DNA of 64,000 nt, taken from Candidatus Nitrotoga sp. MKT (GTDB lineage Bacteria > Pseudomonadota > Gammaproteobacteria > Burkholderiales > Gallionellaceae). How positions within the stretch are numbered: the first letter of the stretch is position 1; each line of letters starts with the position of its first letter. Shown piece by piece: positions 50,592 through 55,803 of the stretch. A program made the translations under genes and the position numbers. The notes under the pieces are model-generated. The model saw only the letters and a program-made list of their open reading frames with translations. It did not search any database and was not told the origin of the DNA. The DNA is taken from NCBI GenBank assembly GCA_003402345.1, contig QFXH01000006.1, positions 1 to 64,000 on the forward strand, given 5' to 3'.

Positions 50592-52259
<1,668 letters not shown>

Positions 52260-52474
52260 TTACCGTTGCTATATTGTTTCTGTTGTGCGGGCAATGGTTC
52301 GTTATCTATGACGTTATAGATTTACGACATATCCACCGGACAGTGCGACACTCGGCAAGTAATTTCGGCCTGAACAATTTATTTAACGGAAGACCGGTAT
52401 TACTTTTTTAATCGAGCCGATCCATAAAGCGTAACGACCCGAATAGGGTTACCCGCAAAAAATGACTGTCCAGA

Positions 52475-52924
52475 TTATTTAATTTCGAGCTGCTTGGCAG
52501 TTTTTCCATTTTTCTTCGGCAACGTCAGTTCCAGTACGCCATTTTCAAATTTTGCCTGCGATTTGCTTTCGTCCACATCGCTGCCCAGCGTAAAGCTTCG
52601 ATAACTCGATCCTTGATAAAGCTCGCGACAAATAACCCGTTCTTTTTCTTTCTCTTCTTTTTCCTGCTTGGTTTCGGCACTGATGGTGACGCGATTCCCG
52701 TCAACTTGTACTTTGACATCTTCTTTTTTCATTCCGGGTATTTCCGCGCGCACGGTGTAGGACGTGTCATTTTCTGTTAGATCAATTTTGATCATGGACG
52801 GTATATCCGTGTCCACGGAAAGCGGACGAGCCCAGAAATCTTTAAGCCATTCATCAACATTTGTAAATGGATCAATGCGAGCAATACTGCTAAATAGTGG
52901 GGAACGTGGAATGATATTGAACAT
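52475..52924 (-). CDS. Hsp20/alpha-crystallin small heat-shock protein (second)
   Basis: 149 residues from ATG 52924, preceded by GGAG; an in-frame Met at 53080 adds 52 unrelated residues. Alpha-crystallin core: VRAEIPGMKKEDVKVQVDGN, VTISAETKQEKEEK, YRSFTLGSDVDESKSQAKFE and NGVLELTLPKK. It resembles HspA/IbpA-type class A proteins more than the other Hsp20 in this island. It lies upstream of groEL. Confidence 0.92.
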   Translation of the reverse strand: MFNIIPRSPLFSSIARIDPFTNVDEWLKDFWARPLSVDTDIPSMIKIDLTENDTSYTVRAEIPGMKKEDVKVQVDGNRVTISAETKQEKEEKEKERVICRELYQGSSYRSFTLGSDVDESKSQAKFENGVLELTLPKKNGKTAKQLEIK

Positions 52925-53492
52925 GTTATTTCTCCGATTAGAGTGAGTTAAATTGTCCGAAGTTACAGCAGTTAGATTGCATTGTTGACGGACATGCTTA
53001 CTTTGCCGGTTAAAGTGATTTGGATAAATCCAAACGCCGGGAATTAAACAATCCGCCAATGTGTTGCATGATAAAAACAATATTCAGGTTGGTCGGTGCG
53101 GTACCGCACATAATTTGATATTTTTGTATGCTTTGCAATGGAAGGTGTACTCATGGCCCTTAGATAGGGGCGATTTTTATTTTTTATGATGTAGATAAAA
53201 ATTTTAACGTCGAAAGTCTGGCCGCTTGGACTCAATAATTGAAATCGGTGGCCTATATGGGAAAGAAAACGCAGCCGGGAATTAATCCGGTCATCATGCA
53301 TTAATTTGATTGAGGCAAGTTCGGGTATCAGTTTTGAAATGTGCCCGCAGGCCGGCGTATCCTGATGATAGCCGAACAAATATCCAGTTGAATCTCTACG
53401 GGTTCAATTCCCCGCTCCTTGGAGCGAAGGCTGGTTAAAAGCCAGCGGATTGAAAAGCGTAGTTAATACCTCTTAGCTTGCTGCGGGGTGCT
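52925..53492. other. Gap upstream of hsp20, uncertain frame and hairpins
   Basis: A 111-codon minus-strand frame (53044-53379) has no family signature and no Shine-Dalgarno; I leave it uncalled. Between 53405 and 53490 there are palindromic pieces: CGCTCC-TT-GGAGCG (53413-53426) and GCTGG/CCAGC (53430-53446), followed by AGCTTGCTGCGGGG. Those resemble the short GC-rich intergenic repeats of many proteobacteria. Confidence 0.45.
53413..53446. repeat. Two adjacent GC-rich hairpins
   Basis: CGCTCC (53413-53418) and GGAGCG (53421-53426) are separated by two bases; GCTGG (53430-53434) and CCAGC (53442-53446) follow. Possibly a repeat or the 3' end of an unrecognised transcript. Confidence 0.4.
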
Positions 53493-53627
53493 TTATTCGG
53501 CGGAAATATCACAACCGCAGATGTTGCCTTGCTCATTCAGCGTCAGTTCCATCTTGTTTTCAAGCGCGCGCGGGGGTGTTATTAATTGTCCGGGGAAATC
53601 GGGGGTTATAAGTACGGGTTGCATCAT
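53493..53627 (-). CDS. 44-residue peptide coupled to DUF2934 gene
   Basis: The first ATG (53627) overlaps the stop of the DUF2934 gene (ATGA), and GAGGAGG lies just upstream, so it is well placed for translation. It reads MMQPVLITPDFPGQLITPPR, then a polar part ending NEQGNICGCDIS-AE with a Cys-x-Cys. I do not recognise it; the Shine-Dalgarno and coupling are the evidence that it is expressed. Confidence 0.45.
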   Translation of the reverse strand: MMQPVLITPDFPGQLITPPRALENKMELTLNEQGNICGCDISAE

Positions 53628-53821
53628 TCCTCCTCGGCTTCGGCAGCCAGCCAGTCGTCCAATTCATAGCCGGGTAAAAATCCGCGAGCTTCCGCTTTGT
53701 AATAGGCAGATTCGGCAATACGTGATATCCGGTTTTTATCGCAAGGCAGAGGATCATGGTCAGCAGGAAAAATGTCGGTTGGTTTTTTTGCGGCCTTGCT
53801 GTTTGCTCTCACGGAACTCAT
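53624..53821 (-). CDS. DUF2934 small protein
   Basis: 65 residues from ATG 53821, preceded by AAAGGAGGCAAT. The DUF2934 core is RISRIAESAYYKAEARGFLP followed by GYELDDWLAAEAE. Often found near stress genes in betaproteobacteria and Burkholderia-like replicons; no biochemical role is known. It opens a two-gene unit with the 44-residue peptide. Confidence 0.82.
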   Translation of the reverse strand: MSSVRANSKAAKKPTDIFPADHDPLPCDKNRISRIAESAYYKAEARGFLPGYELDDWLAAEAEEE

Positions 53822-54351
53822 ATTGCCTCCTTTTTGGAGTGGGATTGAAAGGATTTCGCTAACCATGTCTTTGCGGGGATATTTAACCGAGGTTTATCCC
53901 CGACGTGTGCTACAAGGAAAATTCCGTGCGAAGGATATTTCAAAGACGATCTTAGGTCTGTTCGATAGCGCACATAACTGGATAATTTGATTTTATTGGA
54001 CGCGTTGATAGATCAAGTTTCGCTCGGGATAGGTAAGATGCTGGGTTTCACAAGTTCAGCGCCAACCTACCGGACTATGTGTGTTTTTACTTCAGAGGAA
54101 TACTTGTTTGAATGTTTTACGGCTTCATTCTCTCGAGGTTTTGAGCCTCCTCGGAACCCTGAACGATTCGAGTTTCAGTAAGAGATCCGGGCTATGCGTA
54201 GATTGGCGCTGAACTTGTGAAGCCCAACATTTCATTATTATCCATAACGATCTAAAGAAATTGGGGGCGAAGAAATTGGAAAAACCGGGGGGAGTTCAAA
54301 TTAAACCAGTCATCCGTTCTTCCAATAAACCAATGTTTGAAATCCCAACCT
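53822..54351. other. Long gap between stress island and RND operon
   Basis: No supported gene. CGGGGATA (53874-53881) and TATCCCCG (53895-53902) form an inverted repeat upstream of the DUF2934 gene, spaced like a dimeric operator. A TTGAT-AG-ATCAA palindrome lies near 54007-54018. The 3' end of the RND operon has a terminator hairpin at 54340. Confidence 0.5.
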
Positions 54352-54367
54352 TTATTGGTTGGGATTT
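54340..54367. terminator. Terminator hairpin overlapping the operon's last stop codon
   Basis: AAATCCCAACC (54340-54350) and GGTTGGGATTT (54357-54367) pair perfectly over 11 bp with a six-base loop. The stop codon of the channel gene (54352-54354) lies in the loop. T-runs are on both sides, so it can act in either direction. Confidence 0.75.
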
Positions 54368-55803
54368 TTACGTTCTGATCGCCAATCCCCGCCAAGTGCT
54401 TTGAGTAACGCTGTGCTGGCGAGTAGCCTGCGGCCGGTTATATTGAGGCTGCGTATGTCCGCATCAAGCGCTGTGGCCTGAGCCGTAACTACATTCAGGT
54501 AGCTCACTGTTCCAGCCAGATACTGGTTATTAAAGAGAGTGACTGCTTCCTGCGCAGACCGTTTCGCCTCAAGTTGTACCTTGGCTTCTTCACTCAGGAT
54601 GCGTAGCGTAGAAAGATTGTCCTCAACTTCCTGAAATCCAGCCAGAACAATCTGGCGGTAATCAGCAACGCTTTTGTCAAATGAAGCAATTGCCTGCTCT
54701 TTTTGTGATGACCGCACCCCCCCGTCAAACAATGTGGCCGCAATATTCGGTCCAATAGACCATACCCGTCTTGGCAAGGATATTAAATTGGAAAGCAGCG
54801 AACTTTGATAGCCAGTTGAGGCGCCAAGTATGAGAGACGGAAAATATGCAGCCTGGATAACGCCAATCTGGGCATTTGCGGCCTTAATGCGGCGTTCCGC
54901 TGCGGCAATATCGGGGCGCCGCTCCAGCAATTCTGAAGGAAGGCCGACAGGAAATTCAGGCAAATTTGGCAGGGTCAAAGTTGGCTTGATCAAAAAATTG
55001 GAAGGCGCTTTACCGATTAGTACGGCAATCGCATGTTCAAACTGCGCCCTTTGCACGCCAAGATCTATCGCTTGGGCTTGGGTGGATTTTAACTGTGTGT
55101 CCGCTTGAACAACATCAGCACGCCCTACAATGCCGGCTTCATAACGATTTTGAGTAATTTGGAGCGACCGCTTATAAGCTATCGTTGTCTGCTCCAATAA
55201 GTTACGTTGTACATCATTGATACGCAATTGAAAATAAGTCTGTACCAACGTAGATTGAATGCTTAGCAGGGCAGATTGCAGGTCAGCGGCACTGGCTTCA
55301 GCCGACGCCTGGTTAGACTCAACGGTGCGCCCTATTCGCCCCCACAAATCGGCCTCCCAACTGGCGTTCATCAATATTCGATTGGTATTGGTAATCGCTG
55401 GGGTTGGATTACCGGGAATGGTTACCCCAGCATTGGTTGAACTTGCGCCTTGTCCACGGGTATGGGCAAAACTACCGGACAATGTCGGTAAATAACGTGC
55501 GCGCGCAACACCAAGCAAAGCAAGCGCCTGCCGGTATTGCGCTTCAGCGCTGTGTATATTTTGGTTGGAGATTGATACTTGTTGTACCAACGCGTTTAAC
55601 TGGATGTCTCCATATATTTCCCACCATTTGCCGCGCAGGGTATGGTCCCGGGGATCTGCCAATTTCCATTGACTTGTTTCTTCCTTGAAAGTGGTAGGGG
55701 GTATGACGCCAGGTCGTTTGTAGTCGGGTCCCACGGCACATCCGGCCAGGCTTAAAACAGCCAGCACACAAAATGTTGTTATCAGTATTTTTATACTAGT
55801 CAT
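54352..55803 (-). CDS. Outer-membrane channel of the MdtABC/MuxABC-type pump
   Basis: 483-residue OEP/NodT-type lipoprotein: signal with lipobox (CVLAVLSLAGCAVGPDYKRP), two OEP repeats (QNIHSAEAQYRQALALLGVA; ELLERRPDIAAAERRIKAAN) and the family end ASTALLKALGGDW. It is the last gene of the four-gene operon, three bases after the second permease, giving an OpmB-like dedicated channel. A terminator overlaps its end. Confidence 0.92.
   Translation of the reverse strand: MTSIKILITTFCVLAVLSLAGCAVGPDYKRPGVIPPTTFKEETSQWKLADPRDHTLRGKWWEIYGDIQLNALVQQVSISNQNIHSAEAQYRQALALLGVARARYLPTLSGSFAHTRGQGASSTNAGVTIPGNPTPAITNTNRILMNASWEADLWGRIGRTVESNQASAEASAADLQSALLSIQSTLVQTYFQLRINDVQRNLLEQTTIAYKRSLQITQNRYEAGIVGRADVVQADTQLKSTQAQAIDLGVQRAQFEHAIAVLIGKAPSNFLIKPTLTLPNLPEFPVGLPSELLERRPDIAAAERRIKAANAQIGVIQAAYFPSLILGASTGYQSSLLSNLISLPRRVWSIGPNIAATLFDGGVRSSQKEQAIASFDKSVADYRQIVLAGFQEVEDNLSTLRILSEEAKVQLEAKRSAQEAVTLFNNQYLAGTVSYLNVVTAQATALDADIRSLNITGRRLLASTALLKALGGDWRSERKNPNQ

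Follow-up and report, generated by a model that had tools for sequence, protein, structure and literature searches.

In the window, by which we mean the whole stretch of 64,000 nucleotides analysed here, two short open reading frames of 65 and 44 codons overlap on the minus strand, with an Hsp20 gene further downstream (Table 1). The first frame, which opens with the ATG at 53821, is a clear member of the DUF2934 family (46 bits and E=4.1e-12 against PF11154, for which the curated cut-off is 22 bits). It is intact and represents the only DUF2934 match in this genome, the whole of which was searched. Its start is preceded by GGAGG, which is aligned in two genomes of the same genus, G003 and G009. 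In two papers that mention it, DUF2934 is listed in a table, with its function or its location given as unknown. The second frame has an SD-like GAGGAGG before its start and ends with CGCDISAE followed by the stop codon; its first ATG and the stop of DUF2934 overlap as ATGATG (GAGGAGGAATGATG). The initial annotation, which proposed a 44-residue peptide translationally coupled to DUF2934, was right about the overlap, the GAGGAGG and the coordinates. A Pfam scan of the 44-aa ORF returned no family, a search of the plasmid collection with the locus DNA gave no match, and an Rfam scan of positions 52000-55000 found nothing at E<=1. Promoter-like sites numbered three against 3.0 expected, none of them on the gene strand, and there was one terminator-like site against 1.7 expected. 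As for Hsp20, the listed ORF (52475-53080) opens at a TTG, and the ATG at 52924 has GGAG before it.

Table 1. Features of the DUF2934 locus and their positions in the window
Feature	Position	Strand	Remarks
Hsp20 gene, 3' of the PAS gene remainder	52475..52924	-	PF00011, E=5.4e-21
Related palindrome TGTGCGGTACCGCACCGAC, upstream of hsp20	53092..53110	-	One mismatch to TGTGCGNTANCGNACAGAC
Remainder of the predicted PAS gene, profile positions 42-124	53143..53391	-	Stop-free; frame differs from that of the stub; 3' end deleted relative to G009
107-bp dispersed non-coding repeat, in the predicted PAS gene	53391..53497	-	Net 104 bases relative to the empty site in G003
44-aa ORF, read as N-terminal stub of the PAS-type gene, profile positions 1-43	53493..53627	-	TAA from the inserted repeat
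DUF2934 coding sequence, 65 aa	53627..53821, stop codon 53624-53626	-	PF11154; start preceded by GGAGG
Inverted repeat CGGGGATA-13 nt-TATCCCCG	53874..53902	.	Partly kept in relatives
Palindrome TGTGCGCTATCGAACAGAC, candidate operator of DUF2934-PAS	53956..53974	-	8/8 aligned loci
MITE-like element, 33-nt terminal inverted repeats, 91% complementary	54038..54230	.	Upstream of DUF2934

A search with the 44-aa sequence matched 8 of 61 genomes, every one of them from the genus Candidatus Nitrotoga, which the NCBI taxonomy places within Gallionellaceae. Among these eight, the open frame stops at the end of the 44 residues only in the present genome and in G009, where it is equal in length and 98% identical; in the remaining six it runs on for 106-164 codons. 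The proteins encoded elsewhere are 102 (G003), 135 (G013), 136 (G018, G014 and G010) and 139 aa (L077) long. The frame is intact in G018, G014, G010 and L077, each time starting with an overlap at the DUF2934 stop; the 135-aa copy of G013 has no DUF2934 gene adjoining it, nor is there one in the G013 genome. Because the identical ATGATG recurs in G009, G003, G018, G014, G010 and L077 (G015 has TAATG instead), the overlap is not a matter of chance. Its retention across the genus supports coupling to DUF2934, and judged by sequence the coupling of DUF2934 to the downstream frame is ancestral. The initial annotation had suggested a search for the same overlap behind other DUF2934 genes. The overlap was found in relatives within the genus but at none of 30 fetched DUF2934 loci, the best matches in the family, where we looked for a start (ATG, GTG or TTG) overlapping the DUF2934 stop and followed by at least 40 open codons. 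In this respect the locus differs from the family to which its DUF2934 clearly belongs. A genuine 44-aa microprotein, ending in Cys-x-Cys and coupled to DUF2934, would fit the overlap, the GAGGAGG and the G009 frame. However, 44 codons are not the length at which the frame is kept across the relatives.

The longer frame is predicted to encode a stand-alone protein of ~136 aa with a single PAS domain. This identity rests on the wider family, because the proteins of the genus fall below the Pfam PAS cut-off (none of four intact ones passes, best E=0.012), a profile search of solved structures with the PAS-type protein returned no relative, and the structure model of an intact relative was poor (mean pLDDT 46.8; the fold search was skipped). 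Among the wider relatives, for which 22 loci were fetched outside the genus, six of the ten scanned pass the cut-off, and they align with the genus proteins in one pattern; the profile matches 34 of 158 genomes of the family. What the gene family shares with the PAS domain (PF00989/PF13426) is, in one alignment, a DExGMIxDC...LFGY-like region. The present genome differs in having only positions 1-43 in the coupled frame, the rest being out of frame behind an insertion. Intact copies are under purifying selection, with dN/dS of 0.13-0.29 (six pairs from four genes, the divergent copy of G013 excluded), and the full-length gene is therefore real. The Cys-x-Cys, at first regarded as the end motif of a peptide, turns out to be part of a GMICGC stretch in the middle of the PAS-type domain, and only its second residue is conserved: Cys occupies that position in 19 of 20 alignment rows and the first position in 7, a further point against the microprotein.

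The frame is cut by the 107-bp repeat. A profile built from the four intact copies matches this genome with positions 1-43 at 53499-53627 and with positions 42-124 in the remainder. The two pieces flank the repeat, and the profile has no further matches elsewhere in the genome at E<=0.001. G003 represents the empty site, without the insert and its 104 net bases. With gene parts on both sides of the insert and an empty site in a relative, the locus has the make-up of a pseudogene formed by insertion. The repeat begins with AATAAAG, giving GAA TAA, and thereby contributes the stop codon as well as the end of the last sense codon. The net 104 bases are not divisible by three, which puts the remainder of the gene in a different frame. 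The 3' end of this remainder is retained in G009 and lost in the present genome. With the stop codon inside a dispersed repeat and the remaining gene beyond it, a genuine 44-aa microprotein is hardly credible. Nor does a split PAS protein with both parts still working fare better: the downstream piece is indeed stop-free here and in G009, and a listed ORF opens it at a TTG (53044-53379), but it has no in-frame ATG before its conserved part and has lost its 3' end in this genome, so that we regard this possibility as extremely improbable.

We conclude that the 44-aa ORF is almost certainly the stub of a coupled PAS gene of ~136 codons cut by the 107-bp repeat, in other words, a product of gene decay. 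The ancestral unit would have comprised two genes, DUF2934 and then the stand-alone single-PAS protein, with overlapping stop and start, and ribosomes ending DUF2934 could have restarted on the PAS gene. In the common ancestor of the present genome and G009, an element of 107 bp, mobile or repetitive, was inserted after codon 43. It brought an immediate TAA and a frame shift, leaving a stub of 44 codons and, apart from it, the remainder, which has subsequently lost its 3' end in the present genome. Of the PAS protein the stub contains no more than the variable N-terminal tail and the beginning of the domain, and it therefore probably yields no stable product; the function of the PAS protein would have been lost. 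Thus, the part of the original proposal that holds is the overlap, kept in the genus, while its product is almost certainly a stub of a 136-aa PAS-type protein. The initial annotation had looked to a peptide frame broken or absent in close relatives as evidence against it; what we see is another form of this, the frame being longer there and broken here. What looks like a coupled microprotein can turn out to be a gene that was truncated recently, and it is the frame in close relatives that settles which of the two is at hand. Nitrotoga was absent among the listed matches to literature on pseudogenes and insertion sequences.

The repeat occurs at seven places in this genome, including the one in the window; four copies are full-length and three partial, one of them of 23 bases, and a different copy used as the query gave one additional match, 75% identical. 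Among the 19 genomes of the genus, 14 carry the repeat, some by short stretches only (G016 has 20 matches), as do 38 of 158 genomes across Gallionellaceae. Of 15 copies displayed with their flanks, 13 have both ends, and the flanks are mostly unrelated, the exceptions being the window and G009, which have a site in common, and L031 and L040, which apparently do as well. REP, PATE and MITE sequences are non-autonomous palindromic repeats of bacteria. The 107-bp repeat is like them in being short and dispersed and in having hairpins and, in its full-length copies, fixed ends, and it might likewise have moved by transposition. It differs in that we found neither a transposase sharing its ends nor an Rfam match, which leaves its class unproven. 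A Y1 transposase was considered as the mobiliser, and no link to it emerged: the four Y1_Tnp loci fetched from this genome (L110-L113), with flanks of ~1.5 kb and broken or weak Y1 matches, contain no match to the repeat. A T-arm-like string, noticed in our own reading, prompted a tRNA scan of the repeat, which returned no tRNA. In an alignment of 14 copies, 6 of 25 predicted pairs are changed on both sides, a count that has no control. The initial 23-30 bases of the repeat are also found by themselves, as part of a perfect palindrome (L029:1300-1337, L043 and L044) that has a T-rich end and resembles a two-way terminator.

The PAS gene has been broken more than once. Profile matches are present in 8 of the 19 genus genomes, the gene being intact in G010, G014, G018 and G013 and broken in G009, G003, G015 and the present genome (G000). 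The other 11 have no match, some of the assemblies being incomplete; DUF2934 is found in 14 of the 19. In G003 the gene has its own frameshift, without the insertion, and in G015 a TGA and a frameshift close to the start interrupt it; the two breaks are independent. The loss by a separate route in G003, a sister lineage, suggests that the gene is dispensable. It also bears on the idea that truncation gave rise to a new function, either a new short peptide or an ORF whose translation tunes the DUF2934 mRNA. Such an outcome would be in keeping with an insertion common to two genomes and a stub frame unbroken in both. However, besides the loss in G003, the substitutions are too few to show selection, and we consider new function very improbable. 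Compared with that of G009, the stub of this genome shows one synonymous and one non-synonymous change in 41 codons, too few to show relaxation, and the remainder has 4.7 synonymous and 7.3 non-synonymous changes, the latter partly in the deleted end and again too few for a test of relaxation.

The association of the two genes extends beyond the genus. In two genomes of another genus (L066 and L069), the end of the DUF2934 gene lies 2 nt upstream of the PAS gene, and therefore the pair either predates Nitrotoga or arose twice. The 22 PAS loci from outside the genus were fetched with flanks of ~1.5 kb, four of these loci being shorter than 3 kb. Four of the 22 have DUF2934 in their flanks, and at five (L057, L059, L061, L063 and L065) an Hsp20 match (tblastn) is located downstream on the same strand. 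For comparison, Hsp20 is placed in this way at 2 of the 30 DUF2934 loci (L088 and L105). At L105, on the same contig as L062, genes for PAS, DUF2934 and Hsp20 stand in a row on one strand. Genes for Hsp20 and GroEL come after the broken PAS gene in the window, and in G013 two Hsp20 genes lie upstream of the PAS copy; the flanks fetched around L075 (G018), L076 (G014), L077 and L078 (G010) showed no Hsp20.

The inverted repeat CGGGGATA/TATCCCCG upstream of DUF2934 had been put forward as a possible control element of both frames. It does exist: the pattern has one match in the window, and none of 100 shuffles contained any, although it was picked after it had been sighted. In relatives it is kept only partly. 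It is perfect in the present genome and G003; one arm is changed in G009, and at the equivalent place G018 has one mismatch in the left arm and G015 one in each arm. Within one mismatch, the arms are absent upstream of DUF2934 in G014, G010 and L077. A different palindrome is the better candidate for shared control. By eye, the best-kept stretch among the eight aligned upstream regions is the near-palindrome TGTGCGNTATCGAACAGAC, found in all eight with at most one change.

Of the two by-products of this analysis, the conserved DUF2934-PAS pair and a shared palindrome tying DUF2934 to stress-type genes, the palindrome seems to us the part worth a second look. This genome has 12 matches to it with at most three mismatches, two of the sites entering the count on each strand; the reversed control has 3. 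In the genus, TGTGCGNTANCGNACAGAC, with at most one mismatch, is found in 17 of the 19 genomes, with 109 matches against 2 for the reversed control. One site in this genome lies before hsp20, and others precede genes of the CsbD, DUF3309, EF-hand and cytochrome c families; at three (L125, L127 and L128) no such gene was recognised among the listed ORFs, the ORF listing being all that was consulted there. Among 28 new palindrome loci (L130-L157), three precede the DUF2934 gene of a DUF2934-PAS pair (L136, L139 and L150). The downstream proteins of 20 of the remaining 25 were scanned against Pfam (L138, L151, L153, L154 and L156 were left out). EF-hand was seen seven times (once below the cut-off), BON and DUF883 twice each, and DUF3309, SodC, Ysc84, phosphoribosyltransferase and subtilase once each, and four proteins had no family at E<=0.001; these counts of gene kinds stand without a control set.

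Taken as an operator, palindrome TGTGCGNTANCGNACAGAC probably governs transcription and is common to hsp20 and other stress-type genes, its sites forming a candidate stress regulon. Operators of the Crp/Fnr family have the form TGTGA-N6-TCACA. The palindrome shares this 5-6-5 arrangement, its most symmetric copies reading TGTGC-N6-GCACA, but its fifth base differs and no regulator is tied to the motif; HTH_Crp_2 has two matches over the cut-off in this genome and one weak match. Among the matches listed by limited literature searches, no title pointed to an account of the palindrome or of such a regulon, and we make no claim that the motif is new to the literature. It is tempting to go further and to see in DUF2934 and the stand-alone PAS protein an undescribed coupled pair within a Nitrotoga TGTGCGNTANCGNACAGAC stress regulon, together with Hsp20, CsbD, DUF3309, BON, DUF883, EF-hand and SodC genes, a pair whose PAS half is repeatedly lost and whose loss the window catches after the first cut. 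We offer this broader picture tentatively, as a possibility that is rather more likely to fail than to hold.

Of the MITE-like element, also located upstream of DUF2934, G003 apparently retains only a short scar.
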